From Acidobacteriota bacterium (lineage in GTDB: Bacteria; Acidobacteriota; Terriglobia; Bryobacterales; Bryobacteraceae): a stretch of 64,000 bases of DNA. Numbering within the stretch: position 1 is the stretch's first letter; each line of letters starts with the position of its first letter. Under the pieces are notes generated by a model. It searched no databases and was not told the origin of the DNA. It saw only the letters and a program-made list of their open reading frames with translations. The position numbers were made by a program, and so were the translations under genes. This document shows, one piece after another, positions 870 through 64,000 of the stretch. The stretch spans positions 62,001 through 126,000 of the forward strand of contig JAFKEE010000041.1 in the NCBI GenBank assembly GCA_017307505.1, read 5' to 3'.

Positions 870-2750
870 CTAGCGCGACCCGATGGCCTGGGCAACCTCT
901 ACCGCCATGGTGTAGCGGCCAAACGGCGCGCTCAACTGCACGCCGTCCACCATGTGCCGGACGTGCCCCACCATCTCCTGCGCAATCCGGATCCCTTCGG
1001 CACGCGCTTTCTCCGGATCTTCCACGCCGCGCATCCGGTTCATGTACTCATCCGGAACCGGCACACGCAGTTCGTTCACCATGAACTCCGCATTGCGGAA
1101 CGAGGTCAGGGGCCAGATCCCCGTAATCACCGGAATCCGGAATCCCTCGATCTTCTTGAGAAACCGCTCCACCTGCCGGATGTCGAACACCGGCTGCGTC
1201 ACGATGTACTCGGCGCCGGCCTGCACCTTCCATTCGGTCCTGCGGATCTCTTCCTCAATGTTCAGGGCGCCCGGATTGGCCCCTACGCCCAGCAGCAACG
1301 ACGTCTGGGAACCTATTGGATTTCCGCCAATATCCAGGCCATGGTTCAAGTTGTTGACGATGTTCGTCAGGCCGATCGAATCCACATCGAAGACAGCCGT
1401 CGCATCCGGATACGACCCCATGCGCGGCGGATCCCCGGTGATGCAGATCAGGTTGCGGATCCCGGCCGCATGCGCGCCCAGCAGTTCGCTCTGAATGCCC
1501 AGGATGTTCCGGTCGCGGCAGCAGAAATGGAGCACCGATTCGATGCCTGCATCCCGCTCAATCAACTGGCACGTCACCTGGGCCGACATGCGGGCGCTGG
1601 CCCGCGGGCCGTCCGGGACGTTGATTACGTCGATTCCGGCTTCCTTGCAGAGCCTGGCGCCGGCCACTTCCTTCGCCGGATCCACACCGCGCGGCGGCAG
1701 AATCTCCACGAAGGCCACAAACTTTCCGGCCGCCAGCTTGGCGCCCAGCGACGACTTCTGCGCCACCGGCACCTTTTCCATGGCCTTCACTTTGGCCTTC
1801 GGCTCTTCCACCGTCACGCTGAGCTTATGGATGCCCGGCTGCAGCGACCGTGCTTCGCTCTTGATGCTCTTGATGTGCTCCGGCGTGGTGCCGCAGCAGC
1901 CGCCCACCATCTTGACCCCGGCCCACAGCATCCGCCGCGCATACTGCGCCAGATACTCCGGCGAGCTCAGATAGATCGCACGACCTTCGACCTGCGTCGG
2001 ATGGCCTGCGTTCGGCATGCCGGAGACCGGCTTGCCGGTGAACGCCATCATCCGCTCCAGCGTCTCGAGCGTGGCTTTGGGACCCACGGAGCAGTTCAGG
2101 CCCACGACGTCGGCCGGCGAGGAGTCCAGGAACTGCGTGAAGGTCTCCGTCGAGGTGCCGTCCGGCATGTTGCCGTCGTCGTCGATCGTGACCTGCGCCA
2201 CAATCACCATCTCCGGACCGGCCAGTTCCCGCGCCGCCGCCAGACCCTCGCGCAGTTCGCTCAACTGCGAAAACGTCTCAAAAATCAGCAGATCCACGCC
2301 TTCATCCAGGAAGGCGGCAATCTGTTCCCGGAACATCGCCCGAGCCTCTGCAAACGAGGTCGGACCCAGCGGTTCCAGGTGGACCCCCAGCGGACCAATC
2401 GCCCCGGCCACAAAGACATCGCTCCGCTCGGCCGCGGCTTCTCGCGCCAGCCGGACCCCGGCCCGGTTGATCGCTTCCACCTTGTCCGCAATCCCAAACG
2501 TCGCCAGCCGTGCGCGGGTCGCCCCAAAGGTGTTGGTTTCCAGCACTTCCGCGCCGGCCCGGACGTATTCCTGGTGAATCTCGCGCACCATCTGGCCCGC
2601 GCTCAGGTTCAGCTCATCGAAACAGCGGTTGATGAACACACCACGGGTGTAGAGCATCGTGCCCATCGCCCCATCCGCGATAACGGCTCTCTGGCCGATC
2701 AACTGCCGGAACTCGGCAGCCCGGGAGGTTTTCTGTGTGGTGTCGCTCAT
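870..2750 (-). CDS. Bifunctional homocysteine S-methyltransferase / methylenetetrahydrofolate reductase
   Basis: A 626-residue two-domain fusion of one-carbon and methionine metabolism, of the YitJ type. Residues about 1-300 form a homocysteine-binding (S-methyltransferase) TIM barrel, with DGAMGTMLY at the N-terminus and the zinc-ligand cysteines in GLNCS and in GGCCGTTPEHI. Residues about 330-626 form a MetF-type MTHFR barrel, with EILPPRG, the CITGDPP flavin-site motif and AEYIVTQPVFD. The first domain transfers a methyl group to homocysteine; the second reduces methylene-THF to methyl-THF with FAD. The start is ATG 2750, 25 nt after the mutM stop. There is no cobalamin domain, so it is not MetH. 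The methyl donor of the first domain cannot be read from sequence. Confidence 0.9.
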   Translation of the reverse strand: MSDTTQKTSRAAEFRQLIGQRAVIADGAMGTMLYTRGVFINRCFDELNLSAGQMVREIHQEYVRAGAEVLETNTFGATRARLATFGIADKVEAINRAGVRLAREAAAERSDVFVAGAIGPLGVHLEPLGPTSFAEARAMFREQIAAFLDEGVDLLIFETFSQLSELREGLAAARELAGPEMVIVAQVTIDDDGNMPDGTSTETFTQFLDSSPADVVGLNCSVGPKATLETLERMMAFTGKPVSGMPNAGHPTQVEGRAIYLSSPEYLAQYARRMLWAGVKMVGGCCGTTPEHIKSIKSEARSLQPGIHKLSVTVEEPKAKVKAMEKVPVAQKSSLGAKLAAGKFVAFVEILPPRGVDPAKEVAGARLCKEAGIDVINVPDGPRASARMSAQVTCQLIERDAGIESVLHFCCRDRNILGIQSELLGAHAAGIRNLICITGDPPRMGSYPDATAVFDVDSIGLTNIVNNLNHGLDIGGNPIGSQTSLLLGVGANPGALNIEEEIRRTEWKVQAGAEYIVTQPVFDIRQVERFLKKIEGFRIPVITGIWPLTSFRNAEFMVNELRVPVPDEYMNRMRGVEDPEKARAEGIRIAQEMVGHVRHMVDGVQLSAPFGRYTMAVEVAQAIGSR

Positions 2751-2775
2751 TGTTTTCTGTCAGCGGGTTTCCCGC

Positions 2776-3561
2776 CTACCTCTGGCATTTAGGGCAATAG
2801 TAGGTCGACCGCCCGCCCTGCGGCATCCGGCGAATCACCGCCTGGCACCGCCAGCAGGCTTCCCCTTCTCGCCCGTAAACCGCTACCGGGAAGTTCTCAC
2901 CCTCTGTGAACGCACCCGGCTGTTCATAGGCAGCTATTGCTGAGTCTAGCGCAGCCGTCAACACGTCAACAATGTGGCCATGCAGCCGCTTCAGCCGCAC
3001 TACACTGATTTCATTGGACGGTTTCGCCGGATGGATGCCGGCCTGGAACAGCGCCTCGGCGGCGTAAATATTGCCTAATCCTACAACTGCCTTCTGTTCC
3101 ATCAACAGAAGCTTGATGGGCTTCTTTGTACCCCTAGCCTCGTTCACGAAATGCTGCGCGGTAAACTCTGGGGCAAATGGCTCCGGACCCAGGTCGTCAA
3201 ACAGGCCGTCGAGCGTCTCGTGGAAGCTGAGCCGGCCCAGCGCGCGTGGATCCTCCAGGACGATCCCTCGCCCGTCGCTCAAGGTCAACCACGCCCGAAC
3301 GGTCGCCGTTCGCAGCCGGACGTCCGGGATCACCACCAGATTCCCGGTCATCTTCAAATGAACCCGCACCACCGCCCCGCCCGAAAGCGCCAGCAGGATG
3401 TGTTTCCCGCGGCGCGAAACGCTCTCCACCCGGTGCCCGACGGCGCGCTCCAGGCCGGTTGCCGTGGTGGGGCGGAACTGACCAGTCGCCACGATCTCCG
3501 CCCACGGAGCCGCAGCCCGCACTTTCCGGGTAACCGCCTCAACTTCTGGGAGTTCGGGCAT
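2776..3561 (-). CDS. mutM: Formamidopyrimidine-DNA glycosylase (Fpg/MutM)
   Basis: Base-excision repair enzyme that removes 8-oxoguanine and formamidopyrimidines and cleaves the abasic site. The 261 residues start MPELPEVE, giving the catalytic Pro2 and Glu3 after Met removal. The conserved lysine is in SRRGKHILL near residue 53. The helix-two-turn-helix region contains GLGNIYAAEALF. The C-terminal zinc finger is CWRC then YCPKC, with the conserved arginine in GGRSTYYC. ATG 3561 directly follows the TAA of the upstream SAM hydrolase-like gene (no gap), so the two are translationally coupled. Length and all key residues are normal. Confidence 0.96.
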   Translation of the reverse strand: MPELPEVEAVTRKVRAAAPWAEIVATGQFRPTTATGLERAVGHRVESVSRRGKHILLALSGGAVVRVHLKMTGNLVVIPDVRLRTATVRAWLTLSDGRGIVLEDPRALGRLSFHETLDGLFDDLGPEPFAPEFTAQHFVNEARGTKKPIKLLLMEQKAVVGLGNIYAAEALFQAGIHPAKPSNEISVVRLKRLHGHIVDVLTAALDSAIAAYEQPGAFTEGENFPVAVYGREGEACWRCQAVIRRMPQGGRSTYYCPKCQR

Positions 3562-4326
3562 TTACCAGAGCTCCAGTTCCACCGGAGCGCCCAGGCCGAC
3601 GCCCAGCACCTTGGCCGCGGAGCCTTGATTGACCGCCGCTTCCAGGTTCCCGGAACTGCCTTCGATCAGAAAAGGCTCGTCATCGGGAGCCGAACCATAG
3701 CTGGAAACAATGGTCGTCAGCAGCCGCAATCCCACCTTCAGCGCCATGCCCTTGGGGCGCATTTCTCTGAATTCGGAAGCCGGCAGATTCGTGATCAGGT
3801 TCCCGAACCGGTCGATGTGGACAACCTCGCCCTGCCAGAAGCGCCGCCCAATCCGGACCGGTTCTGACGTCGTCTGCCGCAAGGCGTCGACGATCAGCGG
3901 CCCCACCTTGGAGGACGTCACTCCGGCCGTCAAATGAGCGGCAACCGGAGCAAATACATCTCTGCCATGAAAGGTTTGCGAGATATTGTTCAGGAATAAC
4001 TTTGTATTCGTAATGTGCCGCACCTTGGCGCCTTGCCGCACAATGAGGTCACTGAAAAGACCATTGTCCGGGCCCACAAAGCGATGGCCCTCGGCTTCCA
4101 CCAGGATCGGCCGCCGGGCCGTCCCGACGCCCGGATCCACGATACAGACATGAACCGTACGCTTTGGAAAGTACGGCCAGCTCTGCGACAGCAGAAACCG
4201 AGCCTGCCCAATGTGATACGGCTCGACGTCGTGGCTGATATCAATGACCTGGGTCTTCGGGGCGATACCCGCAATGACGCCCTTCATCACGCCGACAAAG
4301 TGGTCGTGCAATCCGAAGTCGGTCAA
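3562..4326 (-). CDS. SAM hydroxide adenosyltransferase (DUF62 family)
   Basis: A fluorinase/chlorinase-superfamily protein. Most bacterial members hydrolyse S-adenosylmethionine to adenosine and methionine. Visible motifs are TDFG at the N-terminus, VDPGVG near residue 65, the GPDNGL motif and HGRDVFAPVAAHL, then a C-terminal domain with HIDRFGNLITN. The start is uncertain. The first usual codon is TTG 4326, which begins at TDFG. The frame stays open upstream (reading ...IVALPLLTLLTDFG), which is how family members normally begin, but offers only rare start codons. It is the first gene of the mutM operon, 44 bp from the divergent cysteine desulfurase gene. The absence of a halogenation cluster favours the hydrolase role. 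Confidence 0.85.
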   Translation of the reverse strand: MTDFGLHDHFVGVMKGVIAGIAPKTQVIDISHDVEPYHIGQARFLLSQSWPYFPKRTVHVCIVDPGVGTARRPILVEAEGHRFVGPDNGLFSDLIVRQGAKVRHITNTKLFLNNISQTFHGRDVFAPVAAHLTAGVTSSKVGPLIVDALRQTTSEPVRIGRRFWQGEVVHIDRFGNLITNLPASEFREMRPKGMALKVGLRLLTTIVSSYGSAPDDEPFLIEGSSGNLEAAVNQGSAAKVLGVGLGAPVELELW

Positions 4327-4370
4327 CAGAGTGAGGAGCGGCAGGGCTACAATTAGAATAACGGGCTTAC

Positions 4371-5471
4371 GTGTACTACTTCGATCACAACGCGACGACT
4401 CCCATTGCGCCGGCCGTGCTGGAGCTTCTCCAGAAGGTCCAGGCCGAGGTGTGGGGCAACCCTTCTTCCATCCATACGCCGGGTCAACGCGCCCGGCAAT
4501 GCGTGGAGACCGCGCGGTCCCAGGTAGCGCAACTGCTGAACTGCGACCCCAAGGAGATCGTCTTCACCTCCGGCGGCACCGAAAGTGACAATCTGGCCGT
4601 CCTGGGTGCACCGCAAGGCCATGTCGTGACGACCGCGATCGAACACCCGGCCATCCTGGGTGCGGCGAAGCATCAGGCTGACTGCACCATCGTGCCCGTC
4701 GATGCCAACGGCTTGGTCGACCCCGAGGACATTCGGAAAGCGCTGCGCCCGGATACGACCATCGTCTCCGTCATGCACGCCAACAACGAAACCGGCGTGA
4801 TCCAGCCCATCGAAGCCATTTCCGCCATCGCCCGCGAAGCCGGCATCCTCTTCCATTCCGATGGTGTTCAGGCGGCGGCCAAGATCCCGGTGGACGTCCG
4901 GGCCCTGGGTGTCGACCTCTACTCGCTGACCGCCCACAAGTTCTCCGGCCCCAAGGGGATCGGCGCGCTCTACGTTCGCGACGGCGTGAAGTTGAACCAG
5001 CGCCAGTTCGGCGGACGGCATGAACGCGAACGCCGCGCCGGAACCGAGAATGTCGCCGGCATCGCCGCCCTGGGTGCAGCCTGTGCCCTCCCTAAGCCCG
5101 AAGTCGGCGCGCTGCGCGACCGACTGGAGCAGGGCCTGTTGGCCCGCATTCCGGACGCCCACGTCAATTCAGCCGGCGCCCCGCGTACCCCCAACACCAC
5201 CAATATCCGCTTCCCTGGTTTGGAAGGCGAAGCGCTTGTCATCGCCCTCGATCTCGCCGGATTCGCCGTCTCCTCCGGAGCCGCCTGCTCCTCCGGAGCC
5301 GTCACCCCGTCCCATGTCCTCACCGCCATGGGTCTTTCGACCGCCGAAGCCCGCGCTTCCATCCGCTTCTCCCTGGGCCGTACCAACACGGAAGAGCAGG
5401 TGGACGCCCTCATCGCCGCCGTGGAAAAGGCCACCGCTCGTTTGCGCAAGCTCGCGCCCGCCCATGTCTGA
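4371..5471 (+). CDS. Cysteine desulfurase (NifS/IscS family)
   Basis: PLP enzyme that takes sulfur from cysteine as a protein persulfide. The 366 residues start at GTG 4371 with (M)YYFDHNATTP. The PLP lysine is in TAHKFSGPKG near residue 195. The catalytic cysteine is in SSGAACSSG near 308 of the mobile loop, and HANNETGVIQP is present. The last 8 nt overlap the start of mnmA, so the natural job is to feed sulfur to MnmA for 2-thiouridine at tRNA position 34. It may also serve general Fe-S assembly; no iscU or suf gene is present in the window. IscS, NifS and SufS cannot be told apart beyond group I (IscS/NifS-like). Confidence 0.93.
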   Translation: MYYFDHNATTPIAPAVLELLQKVQAEVWGNPSSIHTPGQRARQCVETARSQVAQLLNCDPKEIVFTSGGTESDNLAVLGAPQGHVVTTAIEHPAILGAAKHQADCTIVPVDANGLVDPEDIRKALRPDTTIVSVMHANNETGVIQPIEAISAIAREAGILFHSDGVQAAAKIPVDVRALGVDLYSLTAHKFSGPKGIGALYVRDGVKLNQRQFGGRHERERRAGTENVAGIAALGAACALPKPEVGALRDRLEQGLLARIPDAHVNSAGAPRTPNTTNIRFPGLEGEALVIALDLAGFAVSSGAACSSGAVTPSHVLTAMGLSTAEARASIRFSLGRTNTEEQVDALIAAVEKATARLRKLAPAHV

Positions 5472-9192: not shown

Positions 9193-9268
9193 TGGATGAT
9201 AGGCGGAAATCAATCCAGATCCTATCACCGGAAGAAGGAAAGCTGTTCCGCTCGGCCCTGGTGGCAGA

Positions 9269-62276: not shown

Positions 62277-63569
62277 TTAATTCTTGGGTGCCGGGATGTT
62301 CAGCGGGCGCATCACGCTGGCGTCCCCCGGCTTCACGTCAACGGTATTGGAAGCCTGAACCTTGCCGTTCACCACTTCCAAGGCCTTCTTGAGAATCGGA
62401 TCTTCCGTGGACTTCGGCTCTTTGGGCGCGTTGGGCGCAGGCGTCGCGTCGTCCTCGTCAGTGGTGGCTTCCGGCTCGGAATCGGTTACCGGGTAGTTCG
62501 GCACCACAGAGGTGTCCTGAATGGCCTTGCCGTTGGGCGAGTAGTACTTCGCAACAGCCAGCAGCACGGCGCCGCCGTCTTCGGTGGTGACGGCCTTGCG
62601 CAGGGCGGCGTCGCCGTAGGTACGTTCCCCGACAACGGAGGCGCGCTTATTGTCGAGCAGGGCAGCGGCCACAATCTCGGCCGCACCCGTGGTGCCGCGA
62701 TTGGTCAGCACCACCAGCGGTCCTTTATAGGAAGCCTTGGCCGGATCGGCCTGGTAGGTCTGCTTGGGGACTTTCTGTCCGCTCAGGGAACCGATGGTGC
62801 CCTTTTCCAGGAAGAGGTTGGCCAGCGAGACCCCTTCTTCCGGCGCATTTACCGCGGAGTGGCGCAGGTCCAGGATCATCTTCTTGGCGCCCTGCTTCTC
62901 CAGCGAGGCGATGGCGCTCTGCACCGACTGGGTCTTGCCCTTACCGAGATCTTCCACGCTCACGTAGCCGACTTCCTTGTCGAGCATCTTCGAGACGAGC
63001 GCCGGAGCCTGCACTTGCGCGCGGGTCAGGGTCATCTTGGTCGGCTCGGGCTTGCGCAGCCGCAACACCGTCAACTCGATGGTGGAGCCGGGCTCGCCGT
63101 GCAGCAGCACATCGGCGTAGGCCAGCGGCATGTCTCGTGTGGAGATGCCATTGATCGCTTCCAGGATGTCGCCGGTGGAGAGGCCGGCTTTGTCGGCGGG
63201 GGAACCCGGGATCGCGTCGACCACACCGAGTTCATAGCCGTACTTGCGGCTGAGCACCAGGCCGATGTCGGCCTTCGGAGCTGACTTCACCTTCAAATAT
63301 TGTTTGTACTGCTCAGCGTTCAAGTAGCTGGCGAACGGATCGAGGGAAACCAGCAGACCATTCACGGCGCCCAGGGTGACATTCTTCATGTCGGGCTCTT
63401 CCACATAGTCTGCTTTCACCTTGGCGAACACTTCGGTGAAGACGTTCAGATGGCGGTAGGGGTCCGCGGGATTGGTTTCAGGGCTCTGGCCCAGGACAGC
63501 CCCGATCAGCAGCAGTGCCACCAGCACGGTGGACACGCTGACCACCGAGTACTTGAATCCGTTGCTCAT
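62277..63569 (-). CDS. S41 (CtpA-like) peptidase homologue with lost catalytic dyad
   Basis: 430 residues with an N-terminal anchor (YSVVSVSTVLVALLLIGAVLG). The PDZ domain lies at about 95-185 (IGLVLSRKYGYELGVVDAIPGSPADKAGLSTGDILEAINGIST). The S41 core is at about 195-360. In active enzymes the nucleophile sits in (G)SASASE and the lysine in TFGKG. Here they read NRGTTGAAEIVAAALLD and ERTYGDAAL: the Ser is Gly and the Lys is Asp. So it is probably non-proteolytic, or uses other residues. The C-terminal tail is Pro/Glu-rich and disordered. Followed by FmdB and gmhB in one leftward unit. Confidence 0.88.
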   Translation of the reverse strand: MSNGFKYSVVSVSTVLVALLLIGAVLGQSPETNPADPYRHLNVFTEVFAKVKADYVEEPDMKNVTLGAVNGLLVSLDPFASYLNAEQYKQYLKVKSAPKADIGLVLSRKYGYELGVVDAIPGSPADKAGLSTGDILEAINGISTRDMPLAYADVLLHGEPGSTIELTVLRLRKPEPTKMTLTRAQVQAPALVSKMLDKEVGYVSVEDLGKGKTQSVQSAIASLEKQGAKKMILDLRHSAVNAPEEGVSLANLFLEKGTIGSLSGQKVPKQTYQADPAKASYKGPLVVLTNRGTTGAAEIVAAALLDNKRASVVGERTYGDAALRKAVTTEDGGAVLLAVAKYYSPNGKAIQDTSVVPNYPVTDSEPEATTDEDDATPAPNAPKEPKSTEDPILKKALEVVNGKVQASNTVDVKPGDASVMRPLNIPAPKN

Positions 63570-63612: not shown

Positions 63613-63631
63613 CTGATAGGAAGTATATCAG
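63613..63631. promoter_or_regulatory. Inverted repeat over a -10-like box upstream of the S41 gene
   Basis: CTGATA (63613-63618) and TATCAG (63626-63631) flank a 7-bp spacer. On the minus strand the right arm and spacer include TATACT (63622-63627), a -10-like box about 55 bp before the S41 start. No clear -35. Confidence 0.4.
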
Positions 63632-63712: not shown

Positions 63713-63750
63713 AAAAAAAAGGGGGCCGCCGTGGAGTGTTTGGGCGGCCC
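63713..63750 (-). terminator. Strong intrinsic terminator, minus strand
   Basis: On the minus strand GGGCCGCC (63750-63743) pairs with GGCGGCCC (63730-63723) and is followed by eight T (63720-63713). It stands between the sigma-54 promoter and the S41 gene and has no protein-coding gene directly upstream inside the window. Confidence 0.88.
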
Positions 63751-63834
63751 GCGAGGATCAGGATCGCTTGTTTTTGGAGAATTTGAACGGTCGATCCGGA
63801 GGCTGCTACGACCGCCGTTTCGCTTACGTATTCC
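63713..63834 (-). ncRNA. Candidate sigma-54-dependent small RNA, about 120 nt
   Basis: Bounded by a consensus sigma-54 promoter and a U8 intrinsic terminator. Predicted start is near 63834 (GGAATACG...). A 5' hairpin has CGGTCG paired with CGACCG (63814-63809 and 63793-63788) and a 15-nt loop whose centre is CCUCC (63802-63798), complementary to Shine-Dalgarno sequences. An unstructured A-rich middle and the terminator hairpin follow. No reading frame with a ribosome site lies within it. A trans-acting regulator of translation is the likely role; the target is unknown. Confidence 0.62.
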
Positions 63835-63845
63835 GACTTTATAGA

Positions 63846-63861
63846 AGCAATGGGCGTGCCA
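63846..63861 (-). promoter_or_regulatory. Sigma-54 (RpoN) promoter
   Basis: Minus strand TGGCACG-CCCA-TTGCT: an exact match to the -24/-12 consensus TGGCACG-N4-TTGCW, with GG and GC ten bases apart. Predicted start is 12 nt beyond the GC, near 63833-63836. Confidence 0.85.
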
Positions 63862-63911: not shown

Positions 63912-63947
63912 GGGGACAAGTTGTCCCCATCCGCGCGACAGCCTGTC
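63912..63947. promoter_or_regulatory. Tandem palindromes, candidate enhancer-binding-protein sites
   Basis: Palindrome A is GGGGACAAGTTGTCCCC (63912-63928); palindrome B is GACAGCCTGTC (63937-63947). Both contain GACA-N3-TGTC and their centres are 22 bp apart, two helical turns. They lie 50-90 bp upstream of the sigma-54 promoter, where activators usually bind. Confidence 0.6.
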
Positions 63948-64000
63948 CCCCTTGAGGCCATCAGGGCCTGACCCGCAGCATCGCCACGCCATGGGCCGGG

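Follow-up and report, generated by a model that had tools for sequence, protein, structure and literature searches.

Small RNAs under sigma-54 control in other bacteria

Acidobacteriota are among the commonest and least tractable phyla of soil. In Vibrio, the Qrr RNAs are activator-switched, sigma-54-dependent small RNAs (sRNAs), and the site recognized by the activator GlrR has the form TGTC-N10-GACA. The GlmY RNA of Enterobacteriaceae is made from a sigma-54 promoter activated by QseF/GlrR, and the activator also drives rpoE (PMC6075780). CrcZ and CrcY of Pseudomonas and Azotobacter are switched by CbrB via sigma-54 and sequester Hfq/Crc (PMC8657755). LhrC of Listeria and RsaE of Staphylococcus bind to Shine-Dalgarno regions through UCCC-type motifs that they carry in several copies (see also PMC4132741). 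As a kind, sigma-54-dependent sRNAs are thus known (PMC6075780; PMC8657755). In the open-licence literature, no report was found of such an RNA in an acidobacterium.

The locus described here lies near one end of the window, the whole 64,000-nt stretch of DNA that was analyzed, which belongs to a 9.4-Mb genome of the Bryobacteraceae (Acidobacteriota), denoted G000. The initial annotation had proposed a sigma-54- and activator-dependent sRNA, and comparison with relatives supports that proposal. As with GlmY, transcription of the RNA is predicted to begin at a sigma-54 promoter preceded by activator sites, under an activator that would also drive protein genes (PMC6075780). It differs from GlmY in that the GlmY activator has a receiver domain, which the candidates here lack, and in having no Rfam match. 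It also differs from GlrR targets in the orientation of the half-sites, which face the other way (GACA-N3-TGTC). By Rfam, no sequence relation to the Qrr RNAs or to CrcZ/CrcY was found; with the latter, which act by sequestering Hfq/Crc, it shares the switching of an sRNA by an activator through sigma-54 (PMC8657755). It resembles LhrC and RsaE in that a pyrimidine motif containing UCCU recurs within a sequence that varies elsewhere, whereas here UYCU stands within tandem GAUYCU, the phylum and the promoter type are others, and pairing is putative.

The RNA could initially be matched to no described one, and indeed no Rfam 15 family reached the gathering score in the window; a tRNA was the sole family to do so among the four homologue-type loci that were scanned, and a further scan gave two sub-threshold chance matches only. 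What appears to be new is a family-wide tandem operator, together with a predicted sRNA without an Rfam family in Acidobacteriota.

Promoter, operator and conservation of the locus

The locus is on the minus strand, beyond the 3′ end of an alpha-galactosidase gene of the same strand (Melibiase_2, Pfam; 63961-64000) that enters from outside the window and has its stop at 63961. The perfect -24/-12 promoter originally reported, TGGCACGCCCATTGCT (TGGCACG-CCCA-TTGCT), is present at 63861-63846. Nowhere else in the window is TGGCACGN4TTGCW matched exactly; five further matches each have two mismatches, and since the total of six is below the shuffle mean of 12.2, it is the exactness of the promoter alone that is notable. 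Upstream of it are two palindromes, 22 bp apart, that the initial annotation did not mention: GGGGACA-N3-TGTCCCC at 63912-63928 (palindrome 1, centered at about -85) and GACA-N3-TGTC at 63937-63947 (palindrome 2, centered at about -107). Both are putative activator sites, and together they take the form GACA-N3-TGTC-N11-GACA-N3-TGTC. With at most two mismatches, GGGGACANNNTGTCCCC matches three times in the window, once within the S41 peptidase gene, against 0.35 in shuffles. The RNA itself is placed at 63713-63837, where a conserved block begins at 63837; it is predicted to start at about 63835 and to end with a U run, which gives a length of about 122 nt.

Six Bryobacteraceae genomes were found with the RNA, five of one genus (G000, G001, G005, G007, and G008) and one, G013 (JACADU010000199.1), of another genus in the same family. 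Among G000, G001, and G007, pairwise identity is 89-93% over the RNA and only 60-66% over the 120 bp upstream, a diverged stretch that still keeps the promoter and the two palindromes in both close relatives. The strict tandem is retained in G001 and G007, and palindrome 1 is found as a single strict copy in G008 and as degenerate copies in G005 and G013. The -24/-12 letters GG-N10-GC are common to all six homologues and TGGC to five: the key letters are unchanged in G000, G001, and G007 (TGGCACGCCCATTGCT, TGGCACAAGCCTTGCT, and TGGCGCGGCAGTTGCA), G013 has TGGCATCCGACCTGC and G005 TGGCGGAGATCCTGC, and G008, examined by eye, has GG-N10-GC only. In the three close species, the shared block starts 10-11 nt past the C of the -12 element, the position expected for a sigma-54 start. 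Because promoter, RNA, and terminator are conserved together in relatives, the locus stands above chance, and on the strength of sequence comparison it very probably encodes a genuine sigma-54-dependent sRNA.

Distribution among Bryobacteraceae

In a DNA search of nine genus genomes, G001 and G007 matched at 88 and 87% identity, respectively, and G008 matched partially (81% over 56 nt), the remaining hits having E values of 0.06-0.9. When 200 family genomes were searched with a shorter query, ten matched at E ≤ 0.01, namely G000, G001, G007, G008, G013, and five more; the latter (G045, G056, G072, G140, and G172; E 0.002-0.009) were discarded as matches to unrelated sequence. G005 was found through its neighborhood when the region upstream of the S41 gene was inspected in all nine congeners. 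Within 600 nt upstream of that gene, G002, G003, G004, and G006 have no promoter with core, and this absence in four of nine congeners, together with the small number of family members found, counts against the explanation that we prefer. A pattern combining promoter and core matched 17 of 237 genomes, with real loci in G000, G001, G007, and G013; the other 13 were rejected because they resemble coding sequence, judged from the letters alone. In the GTDB species collection, which may omit records near the window's own genome, the pattern matched 13 stretches: G013, G005, and 11 from unrelated organisms.

A covariance model, run with strict filters and 20 candidates scored per genome, gave matches at E ≤ 1 in 103 of the 237 genomes, and only the five training loci exceeded 33 bits. 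None of 22 weaker matches read among L075-L099 has a palindrome within 250 nt upstream (L075, L092, and L097, near contig ends, lie outside this set), and in L078 -24/-12-like strings occur about 200-230 nt upstream of the match, apparently inside coding sequence. This search missed G005, so that absence in other genomes is weakly tested. Promoter, RNA, and terminator are kept together in relatives; the CCUCC stem-loop, the conservation of which the initial annotation proposed as a check, is not kept.

A tandem operator shared with secreted subtilases

The tandem palindrome, with 7-16 bases allowed between its two parts, occurs at 42 sites in 28 of the 237 family genomes, against five sites for a control pattern read backwards. 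All 42 sites were examined without selection. A strict -24/-12 element lies 35-85 bp beyond the operator, on either strand, at 18 of them, against 16 of 1640 windows drawn at random from these loci; a frame with a subtilase serine motif starts within 350 bp at 20, and both occur together at ten. The 18 sites carry 19 strict promoters, 11 of which start 53-54 bp past the second palindrome, and three of these 11 are those of the sRNA in G000, G001, and G007. A strict promoter is lacking at the remaining 24 sites, and there are many sites without an adjoining subtilase. A looser pattern of one palindrome plus promoter is found in 76 of 237 genomes, and a good part of these matches must be chance, since the reversed control is found in 27; the 20 loci taken from this search were chosen by eye and are not an unbiased sample.

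Pfam assigned to S8 the five of eight operator-linked proteins that had been picked as subtilase-like, and of the other three, one has an HD domain, another TPR and receiver domains, and the last no Pfam match. In G000, two S8 genes are situated behind a single palindrome and a -24/-12 element, L182 (601 aa; gene 1571-3373) and L183 (554 aa; gene 3428-5089), and both proteins end in VVWG-type repeats. Judging by these counts, the tandem palindrome is a candidate sigma-54 operator of family-wide occurrence. As the same operator and spacing precede secreted subtilase genes, the RNA and extracellular proteases are probably produced together, and we regard its membership of a secreted-protease regulon as likely. 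A literature search found no report of an S8/sigma-54 regulon, and the PrsR/PEP-CTERM sigma-54 system was dropped as a counterpart, the regulated genes here being subtilases.

Runs of C-terminal VVWG/NVVWGD-type repeats were observed in the operator-linked secreted subtilases L182, L183, L187, L195, L198, L200, and others. The HD-domain protein (L111) and the TPR-plus-receiver protein (L189) lie behind the same palindrome and promoter.

Candidate activators

About 310 bp past the S8 gene of L182 is the gene (3685-4713) of a 342-aa sigma-54 activator of AAA+/Fis type without a receiver match, homologues of which (E ≤ 1e-75) are encoded in 111 of the 237 genomes. The activator gene adjoins one or two palindromes in G100, G145, G156, G155, and G197, and in four of these five it is divergent from a gene for a protein of 814-828 aa, the side being uncallable in G155. 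Since G145 and G156 are near copies, these amount to about three independent cases. The 814-828-aa proteins of G100 and G156 have GAF, HD, and GGDEF domains. A second activator gene of G000 (L335, 2686-3753) adjoins a similar 822-aa gene, with no strict operator between them. At E 1e-75, G007 and G008, both of which have the RNA, encode no homologue other than a close relative of the L335 activator, and this makes the L335 protein the better candidate for control of the RNA. Against the assignment, no activator homologue reaches E 1e-75 in G005, which also carries the RNA. On genomic linkage, the activator of the RNA is probably one of the short, receiver-less AAA+/Fis-type proteins encoded beside the operator elsewhere in the family.

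A recurrent pair was observed in L335, L338, L340, L341, and L342, in which a receiver-less activator gene is divergent from that of a membrane-type protein of 814-828 aa; GAF, HD, and GGDEF domains are present in the three proteins of this type that were scanned.

The recurrent pair suggests a link between c-di-GMP and the protease regulon. A broader and quite tentative reading, which we hold at somewhat less than even chances, is that of an undescribed sigma-54 regulon of Bryobacteraceae, in which the tandem operator, together with an activator that has no receiver and is encoded next to HD-GYP/GGDEF membrane proteins, would turn on secreted subtilases with VVWG-type repeats, while the sRNA would silence other mRNAs through its repeated UYCU core. 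If so, a single switch would couple protease secretion to post-transcriptional silencing, with the sRNA confined to one genus and near kin. If the explanation preferred below is right, a family of sRNAs gains an operator and a regulon of its own in a soil phylum, and the operator predicts the genes made together with the RNA. The regulon around the RNA may be the more interesting result.

The RNA body and its possible partners

The 5′ part of the RNA had first been described as a CGGTCG/CGACCG stem with a 15-nt loop holding CCUCC. These elements are present at 63814-63788, whereas the hairpin lies outside the minimum-energy fold and is unconserved; it was rejected as a functional element, its outermost pair being lost in G001 and a G.G occurring in it in G007. 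An alternative hairpin at 63792-63822, common to G000, G001, and G007, buries the CCUCC (63802-63798) by pairing CCUCC/CCUUC with GG(C/A/U)GG, and eight of its nine pairs are kept in the three species; it is not the minimum-energy fold of G000 either. G008, G013, and G005 have strong 5′ hairpins of unrelated sequence. The fold of the full RNA is no more stable than that of shuffled sequences (z -1.06), 27 of 200 of which did as well.

Common to all six homologues is the core AAGCRAUYCUGAUYCU, which stands between the variable 5′ hairpin and the terminator hairpin and contains a tandem GAUYCU with two UYCU repeats. In G000 it is AAGCGAUCCUGAUCCU, at 63754-63769, with two UCCU repeats. Structure prediction leaves most of it unpaired in G001, G007, and G005 but pairs part of it in G000, G008, and G013. 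In G005, both repeats have changed in step from C to U.

The initial annotation had the RNA silencing mRNAs at their ribosome-binding sites, a claim left unproven by two comparisons. Near-complements of the core in G000 were counted at 78, and 70 distinct ones among those listed, the RNA gene itself included, were examined. A plausible gene start is close to two of them, roughly the number expected by chance; the count of 12 in the control is uninformative, since its pattern is the reversed one and differs in composition. One of the two (L268; window 9208-9224, minus strand) is 15 nt before the ATG of a secreted-looking protein, and the other (L252) is just within a kinase-like frame the true start of which is uncertain. 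Likewise, pairing of the core with 56 start regions gave a mean duplex energy of -13.37; shuffled cores gave -13.54, and 26 of 40 of them did as well. With starts taken mechanically, the S8 genes of L183 and L182 ranked 23rd and 26th, the S41 gene 42nd, and the activator gene 55th.

We put the chance that the RNA acts by pairing with mRNAs at slightly better than even. It might instead be a decoy that binds a protein through the repeated GAUYCU core, without pairing to mRNAs, which we consider unlikely. The conserved tandem repeat, the C-to-U change in both repeats of G005, and the lack of enrichment of mRNA complementarity would all suit a decoy, and the sigma-54-dependent CrcZ/CrcY act by sequestering Hfq/Crc (PMC8657755). 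However, the C-to-U changes still allow pairing with G in an mRNA. Moreover, we know of no protein that binds a GAUYCU-type motif.

The explanation that we prefer, and hold to be moderately probable in full, is that of a standalone sigma-54 sRNA gene that is linked to proteases and pairs with mRNAs through UYCU. An activator would bind the two GACA-N3-TGTC palindromes about 85-107 bp upstream, and sigma-54 RNA polymerase would transcribe the gene, so that the RNA would be made together with secreted subtilases under a common operator. The predicted transcript consists of a variable 5′ hairpin, the core AAGCRAUYCUGAUYCU, and an intrinsic terminator, and its two UYCU repeats may base-pair with target mRNAs at purine-rich ribosome-binding sites and prevent translation of these mRNAs. 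The comparison supports the retention of promoter, operator, RNA, and terminator as a set and the sharing of the operator with secreted proteases; the identity of the activator, base pairing, and repression are what we infer from it.

The terminator and the downstream peptidase gene

The GC-rich hairpin followed by eight T of the initial annotation was recovered as GGGCCGCC-N12-GGCGGCCC (63750-63723) with U8 (63720-63713). In this intrinsic terminator (63713-63750), 63750-63743 pairs with 63730-63723 in an 8-bp helix closed by a 12-nt loop; the terminator scan reports none because its loops are limited to 8 nt. All six homologues have the terminator, with an imperfect U tract in G005. Covariation is absent from its helix, none of eight pairs being changed on both sides and 95% of cells pairing in an alignment where the G005 terminator is misaligned.

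Downstream, on the same strand, is a gene for an S41 peptidase with a PDZ domain (Pfam; 62277-63569). The RNA lies directly upstream of this gene in five of the six homologues, and among G000, G001, and G007 identity over the 150 nt past the terminator is 91-94%, which equals the conservation of the RNA itself. Both facts would also be explained if the RNA were a sigma-54-driven leader or attenuator with a conditional terminator, read-through of which would add peptidase mRNA under activator control. We judge this to be rather improbable, and an attenuator or riboswitch leader was set aside on structural grounds: in all six homologues the terminator hairpin (-17.6 to -21.8 kcal/mol) far outweighs the competing upstream structures (-4.3 to -8.4 kcal/mol), and the homologues share no antiterminator or mutually exclusive structure before the S41 gene. 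This gene also has an extended -10 promoter of its own (TGATATACT, 63621-63630, minus strand), which is found in all nine congeners, once in the form TGGTATACT, including the four without the RNA. In G013, finally, the RNA precedes an oxidoreductase-type gene (named by eye) and not S41.

Coding potential

The initial annotation saw no credible open reading frame, and neither ATG, GTG, nor TTG occurs within the 124 nt of the RNA. A 116-aa open frame (63992-63642) crosses it but begins upstream of the promoter. In the three close species, nine columns have changed, five, two, and two of them at third codon positions of the three frames, and the frame with five is stopped in the other three homologues. 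A short peptide (..QAILIL..) might be encoded through the core, such that the conservation of nucleotides would be that of codons. Wherever the core differs among the six homologues, the difference is at a third position of this frame. The frame stays open through the RNA in five of them, and an in-frame GTG or TTG is found inside the RNA in G005 and G013. Nevertheless, we regard a peptide as highly improbable: the RNAs of G000 and G001 have no start codon, the frame is stopped in G001, only two of the nine changes among the close species are at its third positions, and the homologues share no peptide similarity beyond AILIL. The RNA is accordingly called non-coding on its sequence, with the caveat of the QAILIL frame.

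That the locus is untranscribed, its promoter being a fortuitous resemblance ahead of the upstream gene's terminator, is just as improbable: mismatched -24/-12-like strings are no rarer in the window than in shuffles, but promoter, spacing, tandem operator, and terminator are kept while the flank diverges.

Other RNA-like units

A second short RNA-like unit was observed in another genus (L190, about 2987-2880, minus strand, G124:C309; also L124), between truA-like and convergent M1-peptidase-like genes named by eye. It has three GACA-N3-TGTC-type sites, a -24/-12 element TGGCGCCCCACCTGC, about 95 nt, and a terminator GGGCCGCUC..GAGCGGCC-U7, and its homology to the window RNA is putative. An intergenic element of a different kind, marked by CUCUCUCC and UUCCAGUUCC and by a terminator resembling GGCCCGCCGUUUCUCCCAACGGCGGGCC, is conserved among L077, L079, L081, and L095 of genus g5 and looks like another pyrimidine-rich sRNA family.
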